Position numbers and translations under genes: made by a program. The notes under the pieces were generated by a model. That model was not told the DNA's origin, did not search any database, and saw nothing but the letters and a program-made list of their open reading frames with translations. From positions 248,001 to 312,000 of the IMG/VR virus record IMGVR_UViG_3300037882_003354: a stretch of 64,000 nt of DNA. One strand, 5' to 3'. Source of the stretch: a virus. Positions 9,843-50,100 of the stretch are shown here, in pieces. Position 1 is the first letter of the stretch; every line of letters begins with the position of its first letter.

Positions 9843-10075
9843 GATCGTTCCTTTAATAATTGTAATAGATGTTCATGACTGTCCCTCCAACGCACTTCAG
9901 ACTTTCGACCAGCATCCGAGTTGGGAGATATAGCAAGCCCACGATATCCGTATTTCCAAAAAATAATTTTGTTGGTTATCTCACAACGGTGGGGTAGCCA
10001 GGCAAAGGACAATTGCCACGTGGCTCTGGAATAAAATGGGTCGTATGTTTGATAGTTTTCTGTGTAAAACATCAT
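9839..10075 (-). CDS. Hypothetical protein downstream of QueE
   Basis: 78 residues from ATG 10075, which overlaps the QueE TGA in an ATGA junction; an ATG at 10084 gives three more residues. The protein is aromatic and His/Trp-rich (FYSRATWQLSFAWLPHRCE, IIFWKYGYRG, EVRWRDSHEHLLQLL). Small phage proteins of this look occur beside queuosine-pathway genes, but no function is known. Confidence 0.65.
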   Translation of the reverse strand: MMFYTENYQTYDPFYSRATWQLSFAWLPHRCEITNKIIFWKYGYRGLAISPNSDAGRKSEVRWRDSHEHLLQLLKERS

Positions 10076-10923
10076 GTGCCCCATGCGTTGCGGAACAAAG
10101 GCACCTGCAATCGATCACTATATCGCAGTCCATGCTGCATGGCCAATTCGGCCACACGACGATTGTTCAGTGTGTATACACTTTCCACACCACCCACGGG
10201 CATGAGATAGATGGGTCCACGAAATCCAGCAGCACGATATTCAGCCGAGGCTTCCAAGGCATCAGCTACATCTGTTTCAGTGGCCACCACAAACTTCAGG
10301 TATGCATAACCCACCTGTTCATATTCGCAGACAACTTCCGGACGAATGGCATCCTCCCAGTTTTCACCACTGCATGGCAGTTTGGCACTGACTGAGAATG
10401 TGACCTCACCACCAGCGCCGTGTGGAAACTGCGCCTGATTCCAGGCTTGCAAGTACTCTTTAAATTCCTTGGTCAATCGCTGAGTGCCGTTGGTCTCAAA
10501 AGTAATCTCTTTTAGATTCTTCATCTTGGCATGCGCCAGCAAGTCAGGATAGGCCCGTTGCCAACCCAGCAAGGGCTCACCGCCTGTGATCACCAGGTGC
10601 TCATCACGCCATTCGCCGAACGGTAAAATTTCCATGATGCGGTCGGCGATGGCATCAGTGGTCAGCATGGGACTCAGATGTTTGAACTCCGGCATCCAGG
10701 AGGCGAAGGAGTCGCATCCTGACTTGACCAAGGGCAGGTCGTTGTATGTTTTATAATCTGCGATCTTGATCGCATGACGCTCTTGACTGGCTTCACCTGG
10801 CAGCATGCCAAATCCGTCACAGGTAAAATTACAACCAAATGTTCTCAAGAACACGGAGGGAACGCCCATATAACGTCCCTCTCCCTGGATTGAATAGAAT
10901 AATTCGCTTACTTTAATCTTCAT
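10072..10923 (-). CDS. queE: QueE-like radical SAM 7-carboxy-7-deazaguanine synthase
   Basis: 283 residues. The N-terminus SELFYSIQGEG is the QueE hallmark, and later motifs fit (LVITGGEPLLGWQ, TFETNGT, FSVSAKLPCSGE). QueE turns 6-carboxytetrahydropterin into CDG on the route to preQ0. The iron-sulfur cysteines are oddly spaced: C31 and C35 are present (GCNFTC), but the expected C-x2-C partner is Phe38. The next cysteine, C70, sits in GCDSFASW, which looks like the CDTxxSW box that normally follows at once. An insertion of about 35 residues therefore seems to split the motif. QueD and DpdA lie 4-7 kb upstream on the same strand. Confidence 0.88.
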   Translation of the reverse strand: MKIKVSELFYSIQGEGRYMGVPSVFLRTFGCNFTCDGFGMLPGEASQERHAIKIADYKTYNDLPLVKSGCDSFASWMPEFKHLSPMLTTDAIADRIMEILPFGEWRDEHLVITGGEPLLGWQRAYPDLLAHAKMKNLKEITFETNGTQRLTKEFKEYLQAWNQAQFPHGAGGEVTFSVSAKLPCSGENWEDAIRPEVVCEYEQVGYAYLKFVVATETDVADALEASAEYRAAGFRGPIYLMPVGGVESVYTLNNRRVAELAMQHGLRYSDRLQVPLFRNAWGT

Positions 10924-14349: not shown

Positions 14350-14601
14350 ATGCGTATCAAAGAATTACTTGCCGAAAAAACCATTGCAGCACCCACTGCC
14401 AGTCAGTGTCAGGTCAAACGGCTGAGTAATGTTCGTTATTCTCAATGTGTGGCACGTGGGCTCAAAGCTCATGACAGTGAGCACACTGATGGCACTGGTA
14501 CACAAGGTGTTAAAGGCAGTGGCCGGCATCTTCGTGGACGCAAAGTCAAGAGCACCAAGTACGGTGGTAGTTTAAAATACTATCCGGGCAGTCGGGAATA
14601 A
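14350..14601 (+). CDS. Small basic head-internal protein candidate (tagged N-terminus)
   Basis: 83 residues from ATG 14350, the only plus-strand gene in a long minus-strand block. The N-terminus MRIKELLAEKT closely resembles the T4 capsid-targeting peptide of internal proteins (MKTYQEFIAEA, cut after Glu). The rest is rich in Arg, Lys, Gly and Ser (GRHLRGRKVKSTKYGGSLKYY), as in DNA-condensing internal proteins. A late-like GATAAATA (14337-14344) lies only 6 bases before the ATG, so the leader would be nearly absent. Injection with DNA is an inference. Confidence 0.6.
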   Translation: MRIKELLAEKTIAAPTASQCQVKRLSNVRYSQCVARGLKAHDSEHTDGTGTQGVKGSGRHLRGRKVKSTKYGGSLKYYPGSRE

Positions 14602-15402: not shown

Positions 15403-17040
15403 TCATTCGTCCAGGCTGTCTTCAAGACCCCTGAGTTTGTCGTCATCACGATTGGCAAAATCAATCTCATCTTGCGAAGTGTGTTCGAAATCAAACAAGT
15501 TGTTGAATGTGGTTGGCACTGGGCCAGTGGACCATGAACCGGCCAGATCGCACAAGAACGAATCTGCTTGTTCAATCATGTCAAATGCTTCCTGCTTGGT
15601 CTTGGTTTCAAAAAGTTCTGCAACAAACCGATTGAAATACAAAATATTACGTGGAACCCACACGCTGTATTCGTCCATGTTGGACTCTTTGGCGTTCAAC
15701 TTCCTCCAATGACGCCAATCGGGCAATTCGCGAGCGCATTCCATGTCCATGAGATGGTTTGCACGTTGTATTGCGGCAATATGTGAATAGACATTGTGTC
15801 CCATCATGAGTGCATATGCAAAACTATCCCAGGAAGTTCTGTTGGGAATCTTGTCCAGCTTGTTAAGCCGAGGGACAACCTTATAATGTTTTTTATTCAA
15901 GTGATCAAACTTTACCTGATTGTCCTGGTCATCTTTGCCCAGTTCCTTGTCTGTCTTGCGTACACCCAGGTCGTAATAACAGATGTCGCCCATGGTCAAC
16001 CGTCGACCGATTTCGCTTTCGAATGGGAATGGAATGTCGCTTCCTGCAAGTGCCTTGTTGTCAGGGGCTTTTTCCATAATAACACTCCAACGCTTTGCTG
16101 TATGTTGCGAGTTGGTGTAGACGAGTCCATATGCCGTGGCGACAAATGGGGATGCGCAGTCAAAAGAGATGGTAACGTCTTCATTAATGTGTTTCCTGAT
16201 TTGTCGTTGAATAGCAGTTAAGTAGCAGGCCCAATCCATCTGGGCAGTGCCCAGGAAGTGGATCCAGTTTTTGCCCTTGAGCAAACCATCTTCTCTCAGG
16301 GTCATCAAACGCTTGAGTGTGATGTCCATGTCACTCTTGGTACCGCTGCCAAATGCCCAGCCGTCAGCAGCACGATCACCCCATACCGCAGGATCACTAT
16401 ACTCCTTGACTCCGTTGTACCATTTTTCAGTCAGTTCCCAATCATCACCCTGCAAGACATTGAGTAACTTGGTCTTGCCCAGGCGGTTCTTGAGGAAATA
16501 CTCGTTGTTGAATCTGGTCTTTTCCAGACAGTCTTCAAACGTCTTCAATCCAGTCTTGGGACCGTGAGTTTCATCGCAAGCCCAGGTGGGAACGTCCAAC
16601 ATCATGGACCAATCTGCAGTTTCTTCCAACCAATACAAGATGTCATCTCGCATTTTATTGGCAGCCGCACCTTCAAAGTCTCTGAAGTCAAATTTAAGCA
16701 CACCCTTGCCGATCTGGAATCCACCGGAGTCACCCAGGATCAGCGTGTTGTTGCGATCTCGTTGTTGCACCATGGACTCCTGTGTGTAACTCTTCTTGAG
16801 ATCCAGTTGTGCGTGACCTGCCGAATACAGACCGTATTTGTAGGAAAAATATCCTTGTTCAGGATTCAGGAAGTTTAGTCCTTCAACTCCGCGATCAAAG
16901 CCGGCTGGCATGCGTGATGCAGGAACAAAATCTTCCAGGCGTTGTTTTGCTATGTAAGTTCCATAGAAGCCACTGATGGCCGGCAGGAAAATAGCGTAGT
17001 CTTTTTGCGACTCTGTTAGATTGATTGGTGGATTACTCAT
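15403..17040 (-). CDS. dpdA: DpdA: phage DNA 7-deazaguanine transglycosylase
   Basis: 545 residues related to tRNA-guanine transglycosylase. TGT-type motifs are the catalytic-site LGDSGGFQIGKG near residue 103, VLQGDDWE near 194, WAFGSGTKS, and the second aspartate in SFDCASPFVATAYG (about residue 293). DpdA proteins swap guanine in DNA for a 7-deazaguanine (preQ0 or derivative) and protect phage DNA from restriction. QueE and QueD in the same region make precursors; FolE and QueC are not in the window and would come from elsewhere or the host. The C-terminal tail is acidic. It lies directly downstream of the sliding clamp gene. Confidence 0.88.
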   Translation of the reverse strand: MSNPPINLTESQKDYAIFLPAISGFYGTYIAKQRLEDFVPASRMPAGFDRGVEGLNFLNPEQGYFSYKYGLYSAGHAQLDLKKSYTQESMVQQRDRNNTLILGDSGGFQIGKGVLKFDFRDFEGAAANKMRDDILYWLEETADWSMMLDVPTWACDETHGPKTGLKTFEDCLEKTRFNNEYFLKNRLGKTKLLNVLQGDDWELTEKWYNGVKEYSDPAVWGDRAADGWAFGSGTKSDMDITLKRLMTLREDGLLKGKNWIHFLGTAQMDWACYLTAIQRQIRKHINEDVTISFDCASPFVATAYGLVYTNSQHTAKRWSVIMEKAPDNKALAGSDIPFPFESEIGRRLTMGDICYYDLGVRKTDKELGKDDQDNQVKFDHLNKKHYKVVPRLNKLDKIPNRTSWDSFAYALMMGHNVYSHIAAIQRANHLMDMECARELPDWRHWRKLNAKESNMDEYSVWVPRNILYFNRFVAELFETKTKQEAFDMIEQADSFLCDLAGSWSTGPVPTTFNNLFDFEHTSQDEIDFANRDDDKLRGLEDSLDE

Positions 17041-21197: not shown

Positions 21198-21410
21198 TTA
21201 TTCAATAGTTTTGCCAGCCTTTTTCACCCAATCGTCTGGAATTCGATTATGTTTTTCCACAAAAAGGTCATGCAATTTTTTAGGAGTGATGTTATATTTT
21301 TTAGCGATGGATTTCATCATGTGATCAATGGCATCATATCCCAGCGGATTTTTTAAATCTTTTTCCAGATCCTTGACAGCATCTTCTCTGATCAAATCTA
21401 AAATTTTCAT
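21198..21410 (-). CDS. Small tagged protein, head-internal candidate
   Basis: 70 residues. The N-terminus MKILDLIREDAVKD fits a shared tag (M-x3-[DE]-[LF]-[LIF]-x-E) found on several neighbours and similar to the T4 internal-protein targeting peptide. The remainder is basic and helical (MMKSIAKKYNITPKKLHDLFVEKHNRIPDDWVKKAG). The start overlaps the stop of the 719-residue protein by 4 bases. Function unknown; virion cargo is an inference from the tag. Confidence 0.65.
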   Translation of the reverse strand: MKILDLIREDAVKDLEKDLKNPLGYDAIDHMMKSIAKKYNITPKKLHDLFVEKHNRIPDDWVKKAGKTIE

Positions 21411-23566
21411 TTCTTCTTGCTGGGATTCTTGGCAGCATAACTAGCAGCCACTGCCATTTGACGACGCTTTTCCTTGGTCTTGCCACGGAATTGTGGAGCA
21501 TTGGATTTTTCAAAGTCTTTGATGTATACATCCACTGGCGCATTTGCTGGAATCTTCTCTGCCAGAACATTTTCTAGAGTGGCTTGCAACCTTTGGGCAT
21601 ACGCATCACTAGATTCGTTGGGCACACAATTGTTCACTCGGATGCCGCCCTTGATCTTGGTGCCCTCTTTGTGCTTGCCCTTCCAGCACTTGGCATCAAG
21701 TCGTTGTTTGATTTCCATCATGTTGTTGCCATGTGTTTCACACATGCCACAATCTGGACATGTCATTTCCATCATCAGGTCTTCATTGTGTTTTTTCTTA
21801 CCAGCACAATGTGCCTTTTGACTGAAGCCCTTGGGATGACTGCAATTGATGCTGCCCTTGTACTTTTGACTCCAGGCTTCATTATAGTTGTCGTGTTTGT
21901 CACGAATGGCATCCAACTTCTTTTCACTGGCACCATCACGCCCTGCCTTGGCCAATGATTGCATGCCTTTTTTACCATACTTCTCATAGCCTTTGGCAGC
22001 ACGACTCATTGTACGCTCGCCTTCTGCCACATCTTCTTCCTTGGCAGTCTTTGCTGCGTCTTTCCAGGCCTGGTCCGTGGGTGCTTTGGGGTTGGATGCA
22101 GATCTACTGGTGCCTGCCTGCTTGCGCTTGTTCACATAGTAGTAAAGACCTTTCTTCTCAGCCTCCGCTACACCTTGCTCGCCGATCTTGTCACCAGGAA
22201 CATTACCTTTCATTCGTATGACACTTTTAGCACTGTGACCGGCGGCAATGCGTCGGGCGTCGGCATCATCTTTGGCAACAAACTTCTTTACTTGACCATT
22301 ACGCAGCATCATTTCGTATTTTTGTGTTGATCCTTCTTCCACACCTTCGTCCTTGGCCCGTCCTGACTTCATGTTAGCCAACCAATGCGCCATGCGTTGC
22401 TTCTCACCAGAACTATGCCGGGCTGTGTCGCGCAATGAGCTGACACTGGCCCCGGTGTTGACTCCCGAACGTTTGGCCAGGCCCTTACGACCAGGGTTTT
22501 TGCCATCTTTGAAGTTTTCCGCCATGCCTGTGTCATGTTGCTCACCACTGATGCTTTGCAACACAGAATTTAGATAATCAGCGGCCTTGGTGATCTTGCT
22601 CTGTTGCCAGGCTTGCAATCCCTCACGTTCGCTGTACCGGCGCACCAGGTCCAACAAATTCACGGCATTTTTGGCAATGCTCTGCAACTCACTGCTGGCC
22701 ATCTGAATCTCGTGATCTTCCGACACACCTTCTTTTGGTTCAGGTAAGTCAGGTAAGCCTAATTTTTTAAGAAGTTCAGGATTTACTTTTTTTAGTTTTT
22801 GTAGTTGCGACTGTATTTCTTTTTTACGCTGGGCTATTGCTTCTGGGCTATAGGCGCGCTGTTCTCTACGATCACCGCTGGGAGTACGATTATCCATTTC
22901 GGTAACATCTTTACTTGCGGTCTTTTCGGACAATTTCTTGCCAATTTGTTCCGACCTGATCATTTTGATCAAACCGAGTTGTTCTCTGGCAATTTTATGT
23001 TCAGGATTCTTTTCCAGAGCACGATTCCAGAACTGTATTAAATCAGCCAATTCTTTGTCGCTCTTGCTTCTTAAATTTTGCTCTTGGTTGAAGGGGCTGG
23101 AATTAGAGCCCTCCGCCACATCTTTCTGGCCACGCAGGTCTTTCAACCGGGCCTTCAACTGGTTTAACTCGCCAGCATTACTGTCTGTTCCGGACAGTTT
23201 GCGGTCATACATTATTTGACGGATGCGAGTCTCAATTTGTTTTTCGGTGGTGTACTCATCTGCACTTTCAGCAAAAGGTTTTTTGTGTTTTTCGTTGCCC
23301 TGCTTCTGTGCTCGCTTTTTGTCCACGTGAGCGCCAGCACCTCCTGTGGTGGCATTCTTGGCTACAAAGTTTCTGGGCTTGCTAGTAGGAACCACTTCTT
23401 TTTTATCTGCTTCTTGTGCAATCAGATTGTCACCACGTTTGCGAACACCACCCATGGGGCTACTCACACTGGCAATACTTCCTGAACTGGTACCGCCGCC
23501 GGTTGCACTTTCCAGTGTATACACAGTTTCCGTTTTGTTTTGTTTTTTGCTGAATTCGGTTGTCAT
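21407..23566 (-). CDS. Large modular protein with repeated VAE|G-type sites
   Basis: 719 residues made of short conserved modules joined by low-complexity links. Repeated junctions read DVAEG, GVEEG, GVAEA, DVAEG and GVSED. T4 prohead protease gp21 cuts after Glu in (L/I)xE|(A/G), so these look like processing sites. Modules include a helical one (SSELQSIAKNAVNLLDLVRRY, then AWQQSKITKAADYLNSVL), a Cys/His module (SINCSHPKGFSQKAHCAGKKKH, then CPDCGMC), and a basic end (FEKSNAPQFRGKTKEKRRQM). These modules also appear in marine T4-like phages. A polyprotein of head-internal peptides is a plausible but unproven reading. Confidence 0.7.
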   Translation of the reverse strand: MTTEFSKKQNKTETVYTLESATGGGTSSGSIASVSSPMGGVRKRGDNLIAQEADKKEVVPTSKPRNFVAKNATTGGAGAHVDKKRAQKQGNEKHKKPFAESADEYTTEKQIETRIRQIMYDRKLSGTDSNAGELNQLKARLKDLRGQKDVAEGSNSSPFNQEQNLRSKSDKELADLIQFWNRALEKNPEHKIAREQLGLIKMIRSEQIGKKLSEKTASKDVTEMDNRTPSGDRREQRAYSPEAIAQRKKEIQSQLQKLKKVNPELLKKLGLPDLPEPKEGVSEDHEIQMASSELQSIAKNAVNLLDLVRRYSEREGLQAWQQSKITKAADYLNSVLQSISGEQHDTGMAENFKDGKNPGRKGLAKRSGVNTGASVSSLRDTARHSSGEKQRMAHWLANMKSGRAKDEGVEEGSTQKYEMMLRNGQVKKFVAKDDADARRIAAGHSAKSVIRMKGNVPGDKIGEQGVAEAEKKGLYYYVNKRKQAGTSRSASNPKAPTDQAWKDAAKTAKEEDVAEGERTMSRAAKGYEKYGKKGMQSLAKAGRDGASEKKLDAIRDKHDNYNEAWSQKYKGSINCSHPKGFSQKAHCAGKKKHNEDLMMEMTCPDCGMCETHGNNMMEIKQRLDAKCWKGKHKEGTKIKGGIRVNNCVPNESSDAYAQRLQATLENVLAEKIPANAPVDVYIKDFEKSNAPQFRGKTKEKRRQMAVAASYAAKNPSKKK

Positions 23567-23931
23567 TTTTTATTCATCCAATTGTTTATGGGACTCACAG
23601 TGTTGGTGGTCTTTAGTTCTTCACTGTCCATGTTACCATGATTGATGTCTTCGTAGTCGGCACCCATGGCCTCGGCTGCTTGCTTGAACATTTCTTGTTC
23701 TAGGGGTGTGTATGGATGCACAGTTTTCTTTTTGCCGTACCATGATTTATAATCCATATCCAGTGGATCAGATCCGTTGGCGCACGCCATGGCCAGGCCC
23801 ATTCGGTATGCTGTGTAAGTGCTATCCATACGCTCATGGTCGCCGTAGGTGTTGATGCCCACACTGGACTGTTGTGCTCTTTGGGAAATTTTTCCAACGG
23901 TTTTTTCCACAATGAATTCTTTGGATCTCAT
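23563..23931 (-). CDS. Conserved tagged phage protein
   Basis: 122 residues. The N-terminus MRSKEFIVEK carries the shared tag, with Ile-Val-Glu before a possible cut. The body (SSVGINTYGDHERMDSTYTAYRMGLAMACA, then SWYGKKKTVHPYTPLEQEMFKQA, ending MDSEELKTTNTVSPINNW) is a block I recognise from T4-like cyanophages, without known function. It overlaps the 719-residue gene by 4 bases and precedes the Dps-like gene. Confidence 0.75.
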   Translation of the reverse strand: MRSKEFIVEKTVGKISQRAQQSSVGINTYGDHERMDSTYTAYRMGLAMACANGSDPLDMDYKSWYGKKKTVHPYTPLEQEMFKQAAEAMGADYEDINHGNMDSEELKTTNTVSPINNWMNKK

Positions 23932-23935
23932 GGCA

Positions 23936-24373
23936 TTATACTTTTGAACTGGCTTTTAGGAACCAGGCATGCTTTTTATGTGAGTCCATGCGTTCTGCAA
24001 GAAAATTTGAAAGTCCATGTGCACCAGCAACCTCAGCAGCATCATAATTTTTCTTTAATACTATCTGTATACGCTCGCTGTCTTGCAACAGTTCTTGGAT
24101 CATGTCTTCCTTGCTGGGCACGCGATCTTCATCTTCAATGCGGGTCAACATGCTGAGATTGTGGTAACTGGTGGGCATGTAACCCCCCAGTTTACGTACA
24201 TTTTCTGCATAGGGGTCAATGGCACCGTAAACTTCAGTGTAGATTTCTTCAAACAATTTATGGTATTCGTAAAAGTCTGACCCCTCTATGTTCCAGTGCA
24301 TGGAATGCACCTTGACATAAAAACTAAAAGTGGTGGCAAAACCTATACGAGTCAGTTGAATTAATTTATCCAT
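23936..24373 (-). CDS. dps: Dps/ferritin-like protein
   Basis: 145 residues with the Dps helical layout. The ferroxidase signature is clear: KVHSMHWNIEGSDFYEYHKLFEEIY (residues about 22-46) followed by D-x3-E in AIDPYAENVRKLGG, with a second acidic-aromatic helix downstream. Bacterial Dps forms 12-mers that bind DNA, oxidise iron and protect against peroxide. The N-terminus lacks the long Lys-rich tail of E. coli Dps. It lies inside a block of tagged putative head proteins, so either virion packaging or protection of replicating DNA is possible. No such function has been shown here. Confidence 0.85.
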   Translation of the reverse strand: MDKLIQLTRIGFATTFSFYVKVHSMHWNIEGSDFYEYHKLFEEIYTEVYGAIDPYAENVRKLGGYMPTSYHNLSMLTRIEDEDRVPSKEDMIQELLQDSERIQIVLKKNYDAAEVAGAHGLSNFLAERMDSHKKHAWFLKASSKV

Positions 24374-24374
24374 T

Positions 24375-24683
24375 TTATTCCCCCACCGGCTTCTCGCCGG
24401 TCATGTATTGTCTGGCAAACCATAATCGAAACCATTCGGGAGTGCCAGGGCGAATGTCATTCTGCCGCATGATCTCTGCCTTCTCTGTTCCGGTTACACT
24501 GATATTACTACCTTTATTTATTTCTTCTTGGTGGCGTCGGTATTCTGCCAGCCGGGCTTGACCACCCAGCCCTGCCAGATACTGTACAATTTTTAACTCG
24601 TGTATGGGATCCGCTGGGTCAAGATGGCAGTCATCAGGGTCATCCCTGGGGATATTATCAGTGCTTATTCGGTACTGCTTCAT
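24375..24683 (-). CDS. Conserved small protein with GTPEWFR tail
   Basis: 102 residues. The N-terminus is Asp/Pro-rich (DNIPRDDPDDCHLDPADPIHEL). A helical middle is followed by a conserved end, RPGTPEWFRLWFARQYMTGEKP, familiar from T4-like marine phages. The neighbouring nucleotidyltransferase at 27597-28487 ends with a related EGTREWFRFI, suggesting a shared interaction peptide. It overlaps the next upstream gene by 4 bases. Function unknown. Confidence 0.7.
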   Translation of the reverse strand: MKQYRISTDNIPRDDPDDCHLDPADPIHELKIVQYLAGLGGQARLAEYRRHQEEINKGSNISVTGTEKAEIMRQNDIRPGTPEWFRLWFARQYMTGEKPVGE

Positions 24684-26575
24684 TTGACTGCACGTTCTAT
24701 CAATCGCAGCATGGCCTGGGCCATGGCCATCTCATATTCTTCACCCAGCGGAACCTGACGGCTTTCTGCGACCGGCGCTGGTGCAGCAGGCGCCGCTGGT
24801 GCAGGTTCATCAGTCAGTCCCATGCCTTCTCTGGTGGCTTGATACAAGGTCTTGCCAGCCACTTGGATCTTGGCTCCAACTCCAGTTGCTTGTTGGAATC
24901 CTGACTCATTGCCCTCAGCGGCATATTTACGAGCCAAGGATCCACTGATTCCAGTGACATTGGTAGTATCAGCATCTCTTTCACCGCTGCTGACAAAACT
25001 CAGGTGCACATATTCTCTGGCACCTGCGGGGTCAGTCGAACGGACTGGTCCGCTGTTCCAGCCGTTGAGTAATTTCTCAATGCTGCCAGCACCCTTGCCC
25101 AGACGATCACTGCCGCCAATGAATGTCATGTTGCGGAATCCCTTGGCATACAACCAATTGGCTGCATAGATGGGACCCAGTACATAGTCAGTGACGATGT
25201 GCTTGGCAAACTCAGGATAAATTTGTTTGATGAACGCAGCCTTGGTGGCGGGATCCAGAGGATCGTCCTTGGTGCCACTGCTGTTGCTCAGGAATATGAA
25301 ACTGTTGGCGCCGCCGGTCTCCACGGTCTTTGCCATGACCAACTGATGTCCCAGGGTGGGTGGATTCATGCGGCCGAAACAGAACGCAGCCATGGGGCCC
25401 TGTTTTTTAGCAGCAACTTCTTCATCAGGCACTCGGTGCTTGGCAAAGTTGGCACGACTGAATCCCAGACGATCAATCAACTTGAGTTTGTCCTTGCCAC
25501 CACCGAAAACATAACCTTCGTGTGCGTTAACACCATCTGTGATGGCAATGATTTCACTGCCCTGTTGCTGGGAGTCAATCTGTTGCTTGATGTGTGTCTT
25601 GAGTTCAGTCACTGCTGCCCACATGGTCCAGATGCCCAACAGTCCAGGACCACCACCATCTTCTTGATACAACCAACCGTCCCGGTTGGTGCCCAGCATT
25701 TTTTGTGCAGCACCTTCGCTCAGTCGGCCACGAACAAACTCCAGGAATCTGGGCACGATTTCGTTGCTGATGTCATTCTCTTCCAGCATGCTGGTGATAA
25801 ACGGACCCATGGCTGTGATCACACTCTTGCCCTTCATGGCAGTCAGCTCATCAATAAATTTGTCCACAGCCGGCCCATTGGCAGCAATGATGTTTTGAGT
25901 CTCTTTGATCAAGTTGGGATTAATTTTAACTATTGGCTTATCACGCATTTCACCAACCATGAAAGTGACACCTTGTTTTTCTTTGAGACCCTTCAATCCC
26001 ACCAGTGGTGTGTCTCCCTGACCCAGACCAGGAATATAAGTGTGCACAGCAATACCGCCCACGCTGGCACCAATGGTTTCACCAAGTTCGCCCTCAATCT
26101 TCACACGATATTCCACGGTGTTGGGCTTGAATACAAAATATCCATTGTCAGTGGGTGGCGTACCAGTCCACATGAGATCGCCCATGTAGAAGAAATCGGT
26201 GCCCTGTGGTACAATTCGCTCCAGGGCAGGGCGCAAGATACTCTCCTTCTCCCAGAGATCATTACGGTTGGCGCCACGACCTTCGTCATATGCCCTGATG
26301 GTCATGAATTCCATCTTGCCCTTGGCCACCTTGTCGTACATGTGTTTGTCTGCAAACACCAGTTGACCCTGATCATCTCGTCCAAACACCACGGCGGGAA
26401 ATCCATCCCACTTGACAGTCACTGTCTTGGGGTCTTTTTGCAAGGAAATCAGTTCCTGCACCACTCGCTGTGCGCCCTTGCTGCCACTTGTGATGATGAG
26501 ATCTTCAGGGTGGTCAATGCCTTCACGCAACACCGGCGCTGTACTTGAACGGTTGAACAGTTCTCTTAGTATCAT
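24680..26575 (-). CDS. Fusion: ligase-like (KWDG) domain plus HxGH nucleotidyltransferase
   Basis: 631 residues. After a tag-like N-terminus (MILRELFNR), residues 55-375 carry ligase/capping-type motifs: K55-W-D-G58 (motif I), HEGYVFGGG near 352 (motif IV) and KLKLIDR near 363 (motif V). Residues about 396-570 form a cytidylyl/adenylyltransferase domain, with PPTLGH405-410 (HxGH family, T-x-x-H form) and GISGSLARKY (ISxSxxR). The C-terminal tail is Ala/Pro-rich, then a helix. It resembles the DUF6267 type of marine phage proteins. It might covalently bind or activate a nucleotide; substrate unknown. Confidence 0.7.
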   Translation of the reverse strand: MILRELFNRSSTAPVLREGIDHPEDLIITSGSKGAQRVVQELISLQKDPKTVTVKWDGFPAVVFGRDDQGQLVFADKHMYDKVAKGKMEFMTIRAYDEGRGANRNDLWEKESILRPALERIVPQGTDFFYMGDLMWTGTPPTDNGYFVFKPNTVEYRVKIEGELGETIGASVGGIAVHTYIPGLGQGDTPLVGLKGLKEKQGVTFMVGEMRDKPIVKINPNLIKETQNIIAANGPAVDKFIDELTAMKGKSVITAMGPFITSMLEENDISNEIVPRFLEFVRGRLSEGAAQKMLGTNRDGWLYQEDGGGPGLLGIWTMWAAVTELKTHIKQQIDSQQQGSEIIAITDGVNAHEGYVFGGGKDKLKLIDRLGFSRANFAKHRVPDEEVAAKKQGPMAAFCFGRMNPPTLGHQLVMAKTVETGGANSFIFLSNSSGTKDDPLDPATKAAFIKQIYPEFAKHIVTDYVLGPIYAANWLYAKGFRNMTFIGGSDRLGKGAGSIEKLLNGWNSGPVRSTDPAGAREYVHLSFVSSGERDADTTNVTGISGSLARKYAAEGNESGFQQATGVGAKIQVAGKTLYQATREGMGLTDEPAPAAPAAPAPVAESRQVPLGEEYEMAMAQAMLRLIERAVK

Positions 26576-27600
26576 GATGCAAATAATCCTTTAACCATTT
26601 CCAATCCACTCAGGATCTTTTTCTTGTCTTCTTCTGCCCGTGCCATGGCCTGTGGGGTCTCTGCCTTGTCACGTTTTTTGCCCTGAACATCTATCATGGC
26701 CTTCTCTTCATAACGACGGACAAACTGAGACAAGAAGTCATCTGCTGATGTAAAATTGGCCAGGTTGCCCTGACCAAACATGTTGTTGATTTCAAAACTA
26801 CGTGCCAATCCTTTGACACCGTTGACCAGTATGGAAATCTTGATGTTGTTGATGTCTGATCCTGTGTTTTGTTTTAACAATGGATCTACCTTGACTCGGC
26901 CGAGGTCACCACCTGCCTGCTGTACTTCGTATTTGAAGATGTCCAACAGCCAGGTGTTGGGATTGGTGGTGACTGTGACGGTCTGAGTGTCTTTTTGCTT
27001 GGAGAACGACACACGCTGGTCGTCCACAACTTTTAACTGTACTCCAGCATGTTGTATGCTCATGTCCAAGAGTTCACCAGTCACGCTGTACATGTTGCCA
27101 GCCAGTAATCCCTTTTGTCCACGCTCGGGTGTCACACGAGTGGCTCCCCAGTCTCTCATCTTTTCCTCGTGCCACATGAAATCAATCTGTACAAAGTCCT
27201 TGGCACCGATCTTGAATATGGGATGCCCGGGCTTGCTTTCGGCTGTGTCCACATAGGGCACATGCCCTGCTTTGACAAACTCGTCTGCTAGTTTATTCCA
27301 ATGGGTAGTGAACTGACCGTAACTGGTGCCCTCCACTGGCGGGGCGATCATTTGCAGATCAATGTCTCCGTATATTTTATCTGGATTCTCTGCGGCATCT
27401 TGCTCGTGGTAGGCGCTGCTGCCTGTGGGACGACCGCGTTCTACGGGGCCTAAACCTTTTTGTTCTAGGAATCGGTTAAAGTCTGTAACGAAGTTGTCAA
27501 CCACCTTGAGGGCATGACCCACCACAGCGGGATGCAACACAGTTCCTTGTGTGATCTTGGTGTCCCATCCACCTTCTCTGAGTAATTCAAAGATTTTCAT
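26572..27600 (-). CDS. Pol-beta-fold nucleotidyltransferase-like protein
   Basis: 342 residues. The N-terminus MKIFELLREGGW carries the shared tag, with L-R-E|G matching a T4-type protease site. The signature RPTGSSAYHEQDA, then YGDIDLQM, fits G-S-x(n)-D-x-D of polymerase-beta nucleotidyltransferases, and FVQIDFMW may give the third Asp. The C-terminal part is alpha/beta with a Lys-rich end. It lies in tandem with another such protein and the ligase-like fusion. It may add nucleotides to RNA or protein; unproven. Confidence 0.7.
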   Translation of the reverse strand: MKIFELLREGGWDTKITQGTVLHPAVVGHALKVVDNFVTDFNRFLEQKGLGPVERGRPTGSSAYHEQDAAENPDKIYGDIDLQMIAPPVEGTSYGQFTTHWNKLADEFVKAGHVPYVDTAESKPGHPIFKIGAKDFVQIDFMWHEEKMRDWGATRVTPERGQKGLLAGNMYSVTGELLDMSIQHAGVQLKVVDDQRVSFSKQKDTQTVTVTTNPNTWLLDIFKYEVQQAGGDLGRVKVDPLLKQNTGSDINNIKISILVNGVKGLARSFEINNMFGQGNLANFTSADDFLSQFVRRYEEKAMIDVQGKKRDKAETPQAMARAEEDKKKILSGLEMVKGLFAS

Positions 27601-28487
27601 TGTAGGTGGTCCATGATAAATCTAAACCACTCACGAGTACCTTCTTGCACAGCAGGTGCAGGGTAGAATTTTTCAACAGCCTTCCACTTTTCGGGATATC
27701 GTTGCAGGGCTTTCTTGATACCAGACAGACTGGATATGTCTCGGGCCGATGCTTCAGGTCCAATCAGGAACTGGGCAATTTTATCCTTCTCAGCACCACT
27801 GGCCACCACTTGCCCAGTCTCACGGTCCACCAACCCGTGGTCCGGACTGAATTGAAAGTTGCCCTTGGTCTCACCAGTCTTGGGATCCACTATTTGTTTT
27901 TGGCTGCTGACCTTGGCCAGTGCAGGGTAGATCTCATTCCACAAATCACCGCCACGCATGCCTGCATCCTGGCTGAAATCATGTGTGTGCAGACTCCAGC
28001 CTGCGCGTGGTCGCACAATGAGGTCTATGGAATAACTTTTACCACCGGCTGTATAATGCACAGTGAGTGTGCCAGGGTCTGTATCCATGCCGTTTGTGGT
28101 CATGTAGTCAGCCAGGGCAGCCTTGCTGGCGCTCATTTGCAATTTGGCTTTTTTTGCAGGATCTGACAGGGCGTTGGCCATGGCCTTGGGACCCATGGGC
28201 TTGTCAGAGGCGGCATTCCATTGTTCTATGTCGGCTGGAAACTTTTGCAGCAGTTCCTGTGGGTCGATCATGATGTCGATGTCGCCAGAATCTGTGCGTA
28301 ATGTGCCTGGATAGGGATGCTCGGGATCAAAACTGCCAGCACCACCAGATGTCCACCCTGCCGCTATGCCGGCTTTTTGCAATATGGGATTTATTTTAGC
28401 CTTGGCTGCAAGGTATGCTGCCTTGTCCACACGACTTAGGTCAACTCCTGCTGAGGCAAGGCGCTTGCCGGCTTCTTGTATGGTCAT
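27597..28487 (-). CDS. Pol-beta-fold nucleotidyltransferase-like protein, second copy
   Basis: 296 residues. The nucleotidyltransferase signature is SGGAGSF, then RTDSGDIDIMIDPQELL (about residues 48-80), with SIDLIVRP as a candidate third acidic strand. It differs from its neighbour and lacks the N-terminal tag (MTIQEAGKRLASAGVDL). The C-terminus EGTREWFRFIMDHL echoes the 102-residue protein at 24375-24683. It is coupled to the next gene by a 4-base overlap. Function unknown; three nucleotidyltransferase-type proteins in a row is unusual. Confidence 0.7.
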   Translation of the reverse strand: MTIQEAGKRLASAGVDLSRVDKAAYLAAKAKINPILQKAGIAAGWTSGGAGSFDPEHPYPGTLRTDSGDIDIMIDPQELLQKFPADIEQWNAASDKPMGPKAMANALSDPAKKAKLQMSASKAALADYMTTNGMDTDPGTLTVHYTAGGKSYSIDLIVRPRAGWSLHTHDFSQDAGMRGGDLWNEIYPALAKVSSQKQIVDPKTGETKGNFQFSPDHGLVDRETGQVVASGAEKDKIAQFLIGPEASARDISSLSGIKKALQRYPEKWKAVEKFYPAPAVQEGTREWFRFIMDHLQ

Positions 28488-28488
28488 T

Positions 28489-28866
28489 TTATTGCCCCAG
28501 TTTGTACTTGTCCTTGATCACATCCTCTTGGAAGTGGTCAAACAGTTTTTCGCACATGTCTTTTTGTAATTCCTTGGTGAATATCTTTTCAGGATGGCCT
28601 GTCAAATCAGCATGCTTGTAATATTCCATGCATCCTTTCTTGACCATGGGCATGAACTCTTGTACCAGTGAGTCTTTGTCCAAGGTATCATGTTTTTTGT
28701 GTGCCTGTTGCATTTTCTTGGCCAGCGGCAGCAAGTAGTCTTTATGCAATCTGTCATGATCCACAATATACCAAAATAGGTCATCACCTATGTTTTTTTC
28801 TTTGTGATCCTTTTCCAACTTTTTGGTTGGATTCACGGCTTTTCCGAAGAATTCATTTAACAGCAT
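28489..28866 (-). CDS. Small tagged protein, unknown function
   Basis: 125 residues. The N-terminus MLLNEFFGKAV fits the positional tag (Glu at 5, aromatic pair at 6-7) but lacks Glu at 9. The body is helical and His/Lys-rich (FWYIVDHDRLHKDYLLPLAKKMQQAHKKHD, later CMEYYKHADLTGHPEKIF). The many His and acidic pairs suggest metal binding, but no known site is recognised. It precedes the nucleotidyltransferase genes. Confidence 0.65.
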   Translation of the reverse strand: MLLNEFFGKAVNPTKKLEKDHKEKNIGDDLFWYIVDHDRLHKDYLLPLAKKMQQAHKKHDTLDKDSLVQEFMPMVKKGCMEYYKHADLTGHPEKIFTKELQKDMCEKLFDHFQEDVIKDKYKLGQ

Positions 28867-28896
28867 ATTATATGCCCCTGTAAATTTTGTGGTGCA

Positions 28897-29313
28897 TCAC
28901 CATGATCTGCAACTCCAATAGTTGGCCTTGGTTCTGGGTCCAGGATTATCGCAATGATGCCTTGCTCGGTAACTTCGTCTACGAGCAGGGTTGGATTTCT
29001 TAATACGCATGGTTTTGTCGCCAAAATTTACTTTTTTAATGTTGCCAGTCTTGGGATCCTTGACAAAGACCTTAGACTTTTTAACATCGCCAGCCATTTT
29101 TTTGTTCAAGGTGACTTTACGCCCGTGATATTCGGCTTCAGTCAAGTCAGTGATGGGCAAGTAGGCCAGGGCAATGGCATCGATGCTGATGACGGGTCCG
29201 TCATCTCGCATGCCGATGACAATGGTTTCTAACACAATGTCATCCAGTTCTAATTCAAAGACATCGCCCTCTTGGAGGTCATCTGAATTGGTCAATAGGT
29301 CGCTAAAACGCAT
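28897..29313 (-). CDS. Conserved basic virion-type protein
   Basis: 138 residues. The N-terminus MRFSDLLTNSDDLQEG carries a tag-like start. The C-terminal 60 residues (VFVKDPKTGNIKKVNFGDK to RRRSYRARHHCDNPGPRTKANYWSCR) form a block I recognise in many marine T4-like phages: strongly basic with two conserved Cys and a His pair. It could be a DNA-binding or structural peptide released by proteolysis. A late-type promoter lies just upstream. Confidence 0.75.
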   Translation of the reverse strand: MRFSDLLTNSDDLQEGDVFELELDDIVLETIVIGMRDDGPVISIDAIALAYLPITDLTEAEYHGRKVTLNKKMAGDVKKSKVFVKDPKTGNIKKVNFGDKTMRIKKSNPARRRSYRARHHCDNPGPRTKANYWSCRSW

Positions 29314-44189: not shown

Positions 44190-47100
44190 TCAGGAGAACT
44201 TTTTCTTAAACTCTTCAAATTCTTTGCTGAGTTCCTTGATGGCCTCCACCAACAAAGGCACCACCTTCTCGTACTGAATGGTCCGGTAGTTCTCACCTGA
44301 CTTGCTGTCACCGTTTTCATCACTATCAAACGGAGCCAACTTGACTGCCTCCGGCAATACAGCTTCCAATTCGTCGGCAAATAATCCAACTATGGATTCA
44401 TCAGTGGAGAACCCCAGCTGTTCAGCCAATTGATTGGGAGTGTACCGGATGCCAGTCAGGGCCCTGACCTTGGTCACAGCATCAGTAATCACACAAACAT
44501 TGGTTTTCAATCTACGATCTGAAAAGAATGCTGTGATGTCACCCGTAGTTGTCAAAGCACCACTAAATTCATGACATTTTGCAACATACGGAATAGTACC
44601 TTCATCGATTGTGGCTGCGTTAGTTCCGACAAATCCAATGTAGCCCTGTCTTACTCCACCGCTGTGCGGGAAAAATTCAACATATCCAGACTTTGCACTA
44701 GTGCCAGTGCGTAGAGTTAAGAATCCGTTAGTTGTGCCAACCTGCGTGGTCAGCAATGTGGCATTTAGTGTGCCAGCAGTGCCAGACGCAGCAGCACCAA
44801 TTCCCACGCTGGTAAATTGCAGGCTGCTGGTGCTGTTGATGCACAATATGCCAGTGCTGTCCACCCGGATGCGCTCTGCAGTACCAGCGCCAATCAACAC
44901 AGTGCTTGACAATCCATTCGAACCAATTAATGCACCAATGACAGTGTTATTGATACCAGTGGTTATTGCACAACCAGCACAGTATCCAATGCCAATATTG
45001 CGGGATCCGATGGTATTACTCACGAGCGCATTCCATCCAACGGCAGTGTTGTCAACCCCACTGGTGTTGGCGTTCAAGGCACAGGCACCTATTGCTGTGT
45101 TTGTAATACCAGTGATGTTGCACTGGAGTGCATAACTACCCACTGCGGTGTTTAAGCCACCATTTGTGTTTCTAAAGAGCGTATCGTTGCCAACGGCTGT
45201 GTTGCATCCGCCACCGGTATTCTGCACAAGCGCACCAACTCCCAGGCCTGTATTGTAGCAGCCGACAATGTTGCATTTGAGTGTACCATACCCAATGGCC
45301 ACGTTATTAACACCGCCAGAGTTGCAGTAGAGTGCACCGACACCTTGTGCGGTGTTTCCACAGCCGTTAATGTTGAAGTATAGTGCACAAGCGCCAATAG
45401 CTGTATTGTTGTTGCCATATCCAGAGGGGCCAGGGCTGTTGTTGGAGAAAAGCGCATTATGACCCACGGCAGTGTTGTAGCTGTTTTCTATGGCGTTTGA
45501 TAGCGCACCAGTGCCCACAGCCAAGTTGCCCCAGCCGGTGGTGTTGGCAGCCATGGCAAGGGCACCTATGGCCACATTGCCGTCGGTAGTGTTTTGCCTA
45601 AGCGCAAAACAACCTATTGCGATATTACTGCAACCGATAATATTGTTAGAAAGTGCATTATATCCCACTGCAAAGTTGTTGTTGCCAATAGTATTTTTAC
45701 CCAGTGAACTGGTGCCCTGTGCAAAGTTATTGCAACCAGTGGTGTTGTTGACCAGTGCATGGCATCCAGCTGCAAAATTATAGCAACCAGTCTGTGTCTT
45801 GTTACCGGCACAGCAACCTATGCCCACGTTGCCCAGTCCAGTGGTGTAGCCGAACACTGATCCCAGGCTGGTGGGAGTGGCCAGGGTGCTGGCGGCACTA
45901 CTACCCACATATCCTGCCGCTGACGAACCAGTGTAACCTGTACTTCCGATGTATCCAGGATCACCCCTGGAGCCCACCCATCCCACCGATCCAGTGTATC
46001 CCTGACTGCCCACATAGCCACTACTGCCGGTGTAACCAATGCTGCCAGTGTATCCACGACTGCCAGTATATCCATTACTGCCGTTATAACCAACGTCACC
46101 CCGACTGCCGGTGTAACCCAGAACTCCCGATCCCGCATATCCAGTGGACGCTGATCCGGTGTAGCCAATGAGGCCACGACTGCCTGTGTATCCCAGCACA
46201 CCCGATCCCACATATCCCGTGGCAGCTGAGCCGGTGTAACCCACGCTGCCCTGGTATCCCACTCCTATGGAACCAGTGTATCCCAGTACAGCCGATCCCA
46301 CATATCCAGCACCGGCGGAGCCAGTATAACCCAGGCTACCACTATATCCAAATCCTGTGGAACCAGTGTAACCCAGACTGCCGGTGTATCCCTGTGTTCC
46401 TGAACCAGTGTAGCCAATGCCCTGCGAACCAGCATAACCCGCGCTGCCGCTGTATCCTATGCCCGACGAACCAGCATAACCGCGACTGCCAATGTAGCCA
46501 ATGCTGCCAGTGTAACCAATTGATCCAGTGAAGCCAACACCCTGTGAACCAGCGTATCCTGAACTGCCAGTGTAACCTTGAGCGCCCGATCCTGTGTAGC
46601 CAACACCTTGTGAACCAGTGTAACCCTGGCTACCAGTGTAACCTTGGGCGCCCGATCCTGTGTACCCAAGCAGACCGCGACTGCCCACGTAGCCCACGCT
46701 GCCGGTGTAGCCCAGCACACTGGAACCGGAATATCCAATGCCCTGTGAACCGGTATATCCTGAACTGCCAGTGTAACCCTGTGGGCCCTGTACATTGCTT
46801 GCCGAGCCGGTGTATCCTATGCTGCCCACGTACCCTCGGCTGCCCGAGTAACCAGATGGTCCCACAATTTTACCAACATCAGAAAATCCTGACACATTAC
46901 CCGGAGCAGTGGCATTGGAGTAGACCCATAAATTACCCGAATTCGCAGCAATATATCCATCGCCAATATTGATGGGACCAACGATGCTGGCGAACTGGCT
47001 GGTGGTGGCTTCAGTCACACTGCCCTTGATGTTGAGGCCAGAGCCCAGGGAACCAGTGTACCCAAAATCACCTCTAGAGCCACGACTGCCCACATATCCC

Positions 47101-50100
47101 GTGTCTCCCAGACTGCCAGTATAACCAATGGATCCAGTATAACCTCGACTGCCGGTGTATCCCAGACTGCCGTCGTATCCTCTGCTGCCGGTATAACCCA
47201 GGGACCCAGTGTATCCCTGTGGGCCTGACACTGTGCTGTTTGCACCTGAACTGCCAGCATACCCAATGCTGCCAACGTAACCAACTGATCCAGTATAGCC
47301 CAGGCTGCCGGTATAGCCCAGGCTACCGGCATATCCTGAATCTCCGCGACTGCCAGTATAACCAATGGATCCGGTATAACCAATGCTACCGGTGTATCCT
47401 TGACTGCCCACATACCCTCGACTGCCAGTGTATCCTTGACTGCCGGTATAACCAATTGACCCAGTGTAACCAGATGGTCCTACAATTACACCAACATCGA
47501 TAAATCCTGACACGTTACCTGGGGCACTGGAATTGGCATACACCCACAAGCGGCCAGTGTCTATTGCAATATATCCATCCCCCAGGGCAGGAGTACTTAT
47601 GCTTGAAAGGTCTGACGACGTGAGCACGCTGCCCTTGATGTTAAGTCCAGTGCCAGCACTTCCGGTGTATCCAATACTACCGGTGTATCCTTGACTGCCA
47701 GTGTATCCTTGACTGCCAGTATAGCCACGACTGCCAGTGTAGCCTATACTTCCAGTATACCCAATTGATCCTGTGTAACCAGTTGATCCCTGATATCCAT
47801 TAACGCCCTGTGATCCATCGTAACCAGCAGAACCAGTATAACCGCGGGATCCTGCATAGCCTGTGGATCCAACATAGCCAACAACGCCGGCGGTGTATGG
47901 TACTCCGTTGATGCACAGGCCGTTGGCATCCACCTTGATACGCTCGCAAGTGCCAGCACCTATTAACACTGTGCATACACAGCCTGCACCAGCCTGCAAC
48001 TGACCGATCACTGTGTTGCTGTGTCCAGTGGTTATGGCACATCCTGCACAAAACCCAATGCCAATGTTGTCGCTGGAAGTTGCACTGGCCAAGGAGTTGA
48101 CACCGATGGCAATATTGCAGTTGCCTGTACTGGAAACACCCAGACTGCCGAATCCCATGCTGATGTTGTCACAACCAGTGATGTTATAAATCAGCGCATT
48201 GCAACCCAGGGCAATATTGCTGTTGCCGAATTCGTTAAAAAATAATGAATTATATCCCATGGCAATATTATTATTGCCAGTGGTGTTACTGTTCAAGGAT
48301 TGGTAACCCACTGCAAAGTTATCACAGCCAGTGGTGTTGCCTTGAAGTGCGCTGCCCCCAACGGCCGTGTTGCGTGTGCCCAGCGTGTTTCCGTAGAGAG
48401 CTCTGTGTCCAATGGCTGTGTTATAACAACCATTGGTGTTGCTATAGAGTGCATATGCACCCTGAGCTGTGTTATTGCAACCAGTGGTATTGTTGTGAAG
48501 TGCACTGTAACCTTGTGCCACGTTATAACAACCGGTGGTATTGCTGAGGAGTGCACTACTGCCCTGAGCAGTATTATAACCACCAAGGGTGTTGTTTTGT
48601 AGTGAATTGGCACCCTGGGCTGTGTTGAAGCAGCCAGTGGTGTTAGTAATCAGTGCAGCAGCACCTTGAGCTGTATTGTAGCAGCCAGAGGTATTACTAT
48701 AGAGTACATTGTTACCCTGACCTGTGTTACCGCAGCCAGTGGTATTACTGTAAAGCGCAGAATAACCCTGGGCTGAGTTGTTACAACCGGTGGTATTACT
48801 ATAGAGTGCATTAAAACCCAGAGCTGTGTTGCTGCTGCCCAGTGTGCTGCTGCGTAGTGCTTGGTGTCCGATGGCCGTGTTGTTGATGCCAGAGGTGCTG
48901 GATTTTAATGCTTCTGATCCAATGGCTATATTATAGCCGCCCACAGTATTGGTCACCAGTGCACACAGACCAATGGCTATGTTGTCAGTTCCTGTCTGTG
49001 TGGTATTACCCGAGCAGTAGCCCACGCTGATGTTGCCCAGGTTTGACGTGGTATAAGCATACACTGTGCCCAGTGATGTTGGCGTTGCAGGGCTAGTACT
49101 ACCGGCACTGAATAATGCACCGTTTTGATAAAGGTTGCCATTAAAATGTATGTCACAGCCAACCCCCAGGCCACCCACAATGGTCACGGCACCAGTGATG
49201 GTGGAAATGGCATTGGCAGTAGACAGCACATTGACATTGGTGGCTGTGGCCGTGAATATGGGAGTACCCAGCGACCTTACAGCCAGGGTTCCTTCAGAGT
49301 TGATCAGGTCCACACTCTGGCTGGTGCTGTTTTGTATGCTGATGCCCGCAGTATTTGATCCCTTGTTCTTGAAAAGTGCACTGGCAGTAAAACTGGGGAA
49401 TGTCTGTGCGCTGTTGATTTCAAAGGTGGATTGATTGCCTGCATATACACCGCCACCCAGCCCCAGCCCGCCAACAACGATCACAGCACCAGTGGTTGTT
49501 GATGTGGCAATAGTGGAACTGGTGACTGCAATTTTGGGCATGGTCAGTATGCCACTGCTGGCCACGTAACTTAGGCCACTGTTGGCACCCAGGCTGAGAT
49601 AATCTCCCACAGCCGAAGCCATGGTGGGATAATATACTGTGGAACTGGTATTGGTTATATTATTGACAAAAATCCTGTCGGCCTGGCCGGAAGTAACTGA
49701 TCCAAAGATGCTGGAAGTACTAACCCAGGTGGCAGTGGTGCCCTGTGATTGCAACAAATAACCAGCTGTGCCTATGGGAATGAACGCAGTGGTGCTGTTT
49801 CCAGTCTGTATGGGTATGGAGCCAGTGGCGCCGCCCACCAGATTGACTGCAGAATTCACCTGCGCGGGTGCTGACCCGGTGTACCCAATGAGTCCGCGAC
49901 TGCCTGCATAACCAATGCTTCCAGTATAACCCTGAGAACCCACATAACCACGGCTGCCAGTGTACCCAATGCTGCCTGAGTAACCCAGGCCGCTTGAGCC
50001 GGTGTAGCCAGTGCTGCCCAGATATCCACGACTGCCAGTATAGCCTATGCTGCCGGTGTAGCCCAGACTGCCGGCACTGCCATTATATCCTGTGTCTCCT

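Follow-up and report, generated by a model that had tools for sequence, protein, structure and literature searches.

Among the closest described systems is that of bacteriophage T4, in which the internal proteins IPII and IPIII both begin MKTYQEFIAE, as read from the T4 record. The first ten residues of IPIII act in targeting, and the T4 cut rule is L/I-x-E (PMC9026906). This report concerns a 64,000-nucleotide stretch (the window), positions 248,001 to 312,000 of the 322,512-base T4-like record IMGVR_UViG_3300037882_003354, and within it a block of minus-strand genes at 21198-29313, many of whose products share a short N-terminal motif (the tag). An initial annotation, made from the sequence alone, had compared these starts with the T4 internal proteins and suggested a capsid-targeting signal. 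The analysis supports this: the N-terminus that these proteins have in common is very probably a capsid-targeting propeptide of the T4 type, extended in this phage to enzymes and to polyproteins whose modules would be joined by cleavage sites.

The window tags resemble the capsid-targeting sequences of IPII, IPIII and Alt and the propeptide of gp24 in being short N-terminal putative propeptides with a hydrophobic patch and Glu at position 9 or 10, in a genome that encodes a gp21-family protease. The T4 gp24 (MAKINELLRE) and Alt (MELITELFDE) starts are nearer to the window tags than are those of IPII and IPIII, gp24 being almost identical to MKIFELLRE of the window, and the gp22 start is of the same class. 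Unlike in T4, the tag occurs here on many more and different proteins (NMNAT-like and nucleotidyltransferase in the window; GNAT, deaminase, endolysin-like and ParB-like in relatives), often lies in gene blocks, and is exchanged with internal polyprotein sites. In phages of the phiKZ/SPN3US type, a distant relative of gp21 cleaves head propeptides behind Glu, and packaged proteins are ejected into the cell; SPN3US propeptides are mostly 111-254 residues long, with two of 20 and 24, whereas those proposed here span about 8-20. Polyvalent proteins (Iyer et al., 2017; PMC5512222) are multidomain, head-packaged and in some cases processed, and their ParB-like and peptidoglycan-active cargo overlaps with that described below. 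The 719-residue putative polyprotein of the window (21407-23566, minus strand) is modular, and its packaging is predicted. In the parts of PMC5512222 reached by a term search, no S77-type joints between modules were found, and the modules here differ from polyvalent proteins in their small size and in being found as individual tagged genes as well. Finally, cyanophages S-CREM2, S-SZBM1, S-SCSM1 and S-CBWM1 encode NMNAT/cytidylyltransferases that are relatives of the 24680-26575 product and are present in virions by mass spectrometry. The available portions of the papers on these proteins name no packaging signal, and the window protein differs from them by a DUF6267 fusion.

A shared N-terminus and a gp21-family protease

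All six starts of the form M-x3-[DE]-[LF]-[LIF] that had been listed on the minus strand are present at the genes named. This strict motif occupies 6 of the 11 gene starts in 21198-29313, against ~0.3% by chance (P about 3e-13). Among the 318 genes predicted in the whole record by a heuristic caller, it occurs in 10 (0.9 expected); none of 2000 column shuffles attained this number, and none of 20,000 gene-order permutations placed 6 such genes among 11 consecutive ones. When the motif was widened and a Glu shortly behind the tag was demanded, the result was less clear-cut (10 genes; shuffle mean 3.8; 5 of 2000 shuffles reaching 10). The remaining strict-motif genes either lie near head genes, at 204846 (MFLREFIYF) and 210325 (MRIHDLIIE) of the record, or are isolated.

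One correction concerns the Glu that would be cut. An L/I-x-E-type motif stands at or soon after the tag in five of the six genes: Glu directly ends the tag in three (LIRE↓D, FIVE↓K, LLRE↓G; arrows mark predicted cuts), it follows further downstream in two (MILRELFNRSSTAPVLRE↓G, MRFSDLLTNSDDLQE↓G), and none is close by in MLLNEFFGK. The prohead protease gene that the annotation had proposed to locate was found at 203110-203739 of the record; its product belongs to the gp21 family (PF03420, E=6.8e-27, match 203239-203670; phrog_207 head maturation protease, E=1.1e-54). T4-type portal, scaffold and major capsid protein (MCP) genes were also recognised in the record, by visual inspection of sequence and gene order. 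Proteases of this family are also encoded by T4, Melnitz, S-SZBM1, S-CREM2 and P-HM2, and a phrog_207 search of 20 large related contigs, many of them fragments, gave a match in 9.

The capsid protein of this phage has a predicted cut site, RRSLAE↓SATAGATSAGNV, and in the cargo of relatives the same MCP string stands behind a tag or behind an internal Glu (MKIKELLE↓TATAGATSAGNI and MKIKEIFE↓SATAGATSAGNV). In two relatives, the tag is followed by the same ~12 residues as follow the predicted cut in the MCP of this phage. Such a common post-cut string in MCP and cargo is expected if a single protease cuts both. In cargo of four related loci (L107, L111, L113 and L114), the predicted mature MCP N-terminal stretch, ATAGATSAGN, was also seen directly after the predicted cut site.

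On this model, a tag of 8-20 residues, either M-[KR]-x-x-[DE]-[LF]-[LIF]-x-Glu or a hydrophobic stretch with a spacer and hydrophobic-x-Glu, would bind the scaffold core during prohead assembly, and the bound tag would carry its protein into the head. The gp21-family protease would then cleave behind Glu, releasing the mature protein within the head. The predicted cargo comprises a DUF6267/NMN-adenylyltransferase-like protein, one or two nucleotidyltransferases, small unknown proteins and the 719-residue polyprotein, whose basic modules would be split by the same kind of site. We infer that targeting and cutting take place in this phage, and, by analogy with the T4 internal proteins and Alt, the cargo may be released into the host cell with the DNA.

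Exchange of tags and internal joints in related phages

Starts were compared across related IMG/VR loci comprising 879 called genes, which are not an unbiased sample because they were retrieved via three proteins of this genome; the strict tag is present in 128 of these genes versus 2.6 expected. Among the tagged genes, the first Glu past residue 7 falls at position 8 or 9 in 91 of 128, the usual form being M[RK][IAL]x[ED][LF][ILF]xE. A hydrophobic-x-Glu motif within residues 5-24 is found in 77% of tagged versus 30% of other genes in the relatives (P=4e-23), with a predicted P3 that is mostly Leu or Ile and a P1' of Ser, Gly, Ala, Asp or Asn. The tag is common to non-homologous proteins, the mature parts forming 26 single-linkage clusters, and the families matched by tagged proteins in relatives are deaminase, GNAT, chitinase/endolysin, transglycosylase and ParB-like. 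The isolate Methylophilales phage Melnitz also encodes a tagged NMNAT-like protein (MKKFSEIIE↓A). In the family of the 24680-26575 protein, tag and spacer vary, while Glu-Gly ahead of the folded part is invariant. In that of the 27597-28487 protein, a full tag (MKIRELLE↓SGKRL, L011), a short start or an untagged start (IAE↓AGKRL, L015) all reach Glu before (A/S)GKRL, one distant member excepted.

The 719-residue protein has an MCP-like N-terminal site (VYTLE↓SATGGGTSSG) and hydrophobic-x-Glu joints (DVAE↓G, GMAE↓N, GVEE↓G, QGVAE↓A and DVAE↓G), and its pieces reappear in other proteins behind a tag or an internal joint. The basic module GRKGLAKRSGVN was found behind 51 distinct upstream sequences, with Glu immediately before it in all; because Glu belonged to the search pattern, the test rests on P3, which is V, L, I or M in 46 of 51 versus a background of 19.5%. 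The same module forms a complete small protein, MRINELLE↓NFADGK (L055). Modules KPRNFVAK, SRAAKGYEKYG, SINCSHPKGFSQ and DAKCWKG follow a similar but less clean pattern, 14 of 19 KPRNFVAK copies lacking a tag or joint within 14 residues. These arrangements indicate that a tag and an internal hydrophobic-x-Glu site can stand in for each other.

One joint is also conserved as DNA. The linker CAAGGTGTAGCGGAG (22163-22177, minus strand) encodes QGVAE between two polyprotein modules, and a degenerate copy, EGVSE, lies at 22718-22732. As AG-CAAGGTGTGGCGGAA-G, the QGVAE linker is kept with sharp edges in 83 distinct unrelated contexts (L036-L116, L138-L216), and it uses rare codons, GCG making up 92% of linker versus 8% of Ala codons generally. 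A 16-mer of the linker has at least 170 distinct IMG/VR occurrences. Protease recognition alone leaves this DNA-level conservation unexplained. There is roughly an even chance that many uncultured T4-like phages load small basic modules and enzymes into the head as modular cargo, singly behind a tag or in polyproteins with protease-site joints (QGVAE↓, GMAE↓, DVAE↓), and that the joint, conserved as an 18-base string, may serve as a recombination seam letting cargo reshuffle with packaging and release intact. In a literature search that left most subscription papers and supplements outside its reach, the matches listed for the QGVAE string included no phage paper, and searches combining terms for the prohead protease or gp21 with internal proteins, cyanophages, polyproteins or cargo yielded PMC9026906 or no paper.

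Joints QGMSE, QGVSE, QDMAE and QGVAE were also noted in a 1061-residue protein (152997-156182 of the record) and a 330-residue protein (157845-158837; L030) that flank a terminase-like gene; next to these two proteins, a gene at 158840-159430 begins MKTFLDYLSES. A viral-contig scan with the 1061-residue protein returned one relative.

Virion proteomes and alternative explanations

Published mass spectrometry places the tagged cytidylyltransferases of S-SZBM1 (MRFRQFIIE↓A) and S-CREM2, both relatives of the 24680-26575 protein, in virions, and in two cultured relatives most proteins bearing this kind of label were found in purified particles. For S-CREM2, 139 genes were translated from two regions and a motif was built on T4, Melnitz and S-SZBM1 starts. 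All 4 motif-bearing non-structural genes (S-adenosylmethionine (SAM) hydrolase, gp13, kinase and cytidylyltransferase) are in the virion proteome, versus 9 of 135 others (P=4.8e-5); a narrower motif, applied by inspection, selects two genes, both detected. A loose rule accepting any hydrophobic-x-Glu in the first 13 residues was discarded as too permissive (27 genes, P=0.01). No virion lists were found in the main texts of the S-CREM1 and S-SCSM1 papers. Separately, S-CREM2 Cas9 (L125, 7704-10313), which is reported in virions, contains within its first 40 residues the tag-like sequence RFASFMAE↓A and would count as a fifth case; its start codon may be misannotated.

Several observations weigh against a capsid-targeting role. 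Two positions of the S-CREM2 motif were relaxed (V start, L at position 4) once the sequences had been seen, and S-SZBM1_191 (MKSFKSFLSE) has the motif and is not in the S-SZBM1 virion list, being either a counter-example or a missed small protein. The virion data come from relatives rather than from this phage or its freshwater relatives, and, as one proteome paper cautions, virion preparations can contain abundant non-virion proteins. One of the six window tags, that of 28489-28866, has no hydrophobic-x-Glu nearby, and two related contigs >250 kb gave no phrog_207 match. On the supporting side, a phAPEC6 homolog has no tag and begins directly in the enzyme domain, and a term search of that paper's text and protein table turned up neither 'cytitidyl' nor gp39x; because phAPEC6 is a distant phage, this contrast is only suggestive.

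Could the tags and QGVAE-like joints be mainly recombination joints, or copied sequence for the exchange of gene pieces, with no packaging role? The near-constant QGVAE DNA across 83 unrelated contexts and its rare codons are what such an origin would predict. However, hydrophobic-x-Glu is kept at the protein level even where the DNA differs, P3 being V, L, I or M, and, judged by the longest open frame, 168 of the 170 listed 16-mer matches are read in the QGVAE frame. Recombination would also leave unexplained the replacement of a joint by an N-terminal tag and the presence of tagged proteins in virions, so that, as a full account, it is quite unlikely; recombination and packaging roles of the joint can coexist.

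An N-terminal motif might instead reflect translation-start or codon bias, since genes of bacteria and phages generally favour Lys/Arg and AT-rich second codons. The clustering in a block and the column shuffles led chance and start bias to be set aside; moreover, the motif is restricted to a gene block and otherwise rare in this genome, as it is in T4 and Melnitz, sets acidic-hydrophobic-hydrophobic-x-Glu positions, and recurs at internal module joints, which makes this explanation extremely unlikely. The tag is short and partly hydrophobic, as might suit a signal that sends proteins elsewhere (membrane, replication compartment or partner complex) with Glu incidental. That destination is very unlikely, as the tag belongs to the sequence class of T4 gp21 substrates, the residues after the predicted cut match those in the capsid protein of this phage, and tagged relatives were detected in virions. 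The capsid-targeting interpretation is supported by the T4 starts, the gp21-family protease, tags on non-homologous proteins, tag/site exchange and the tagged relatives in virions.

Predicted cargo and its significance

The remaining genes of the block all lie on the minus strand. The 70-residue product of 21198-21410 (MKILDLIRE↓DAVKDLEKDLKNPLGY..., predicted cut after Glu9; phrog_10346, E=1.1e-11) consists of the tag and a small module; in locus L051 this module is joined in a fusion to another one that follows it. The 122-residue product of 23563-23931 (MRSKEFIVE↓KTVGK..., predicted cut after Glu9) has no family match. Two genes inside the block are untagged, encoding a ferritin/Dps-like protein (23936-24373; PF00210, E=1.5e-19; phrog_3636, E=1.1e-28) and a 102-residue protein (24375-24683). 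At the far end, the tagged 125-residue protein of 28489-28866 has homologs that start MLLKEFFGK, MKLMEFFGK and MLLNEFFGH, and the 138-residue protein of 28897-29313 (MRFSDLLTNSDDLQE↓GDVFEL; phrog_7595, E=4.2e-11) carries tag MRFSDLLTN with a putative cut after Glu15. The lone plus-strand start noted earlier, MRIKELLAE↓KTIAAPT, is readable as a possible 83-residue tagged gene at 14350-14601, although it lacks a clear ribosome-binding site; it has no family match and no homolog among the fetched loci.

The description of tagged cargo as nucleotidyltransferases was partly borne out by family and structure matches. The 631-residue protein of 24680-26575 (MILRELFNRSSTAPVLRE↓GIDHPEDL), with tag MILRELFNR, a variable spacer and Glu-Gly, joins DUF6267 to an NMNAT/cytidylyltransferase-like domain with NadM/NadD-like fold matches; the model of the protein is of low confidence. 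By eye, the DUF6267 part has a ligase/nucleotidyltransferase-like KWDG at residues 55-58. The 342-residue protein of 26572-27600 (MKIFELLRE↓GGWDT) is predicted, from its model, to be a nucleotidyltransferase of the DNA polymerase beta superfamily; its best PDB matches are cGAS/CD-NTase/TUTase/CCA-adding enzymes, with weak E-values, and residues 1-21 of the model are of low confidence. The 296-residue protein of 27597-28487, with a reduced tag (MTIQE↓AGKRL), has no family match, and its GDIDIMID is suggestive of a nucleotidyltransferase.

Elsewhere in the window, 10072-10923 and 15403-17040 appear by eye to be QueE-like and transglycosylase-like, suggesting 7-deazaguanine modification of phage DNA, and 44190-50309, also judged by eye, encodes a likely tail fibre of 2039 residues in which collagen-like GYTGS repeats lie close to the start.

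With a packaging signal that can be read in the sequence, virion cargo would become predictable in environmental phages that are abundant and whose proteins mostly lack a known function. The tag may explain the presence of NMNAT-like proteins, SAM hydrolase, kinase and possibly Cas9 in cyanophage particles. Which proteins a phage brings along becomes a testable question, and the starts described here offer a set of natural tags for loading proteins into T4-like capsids.

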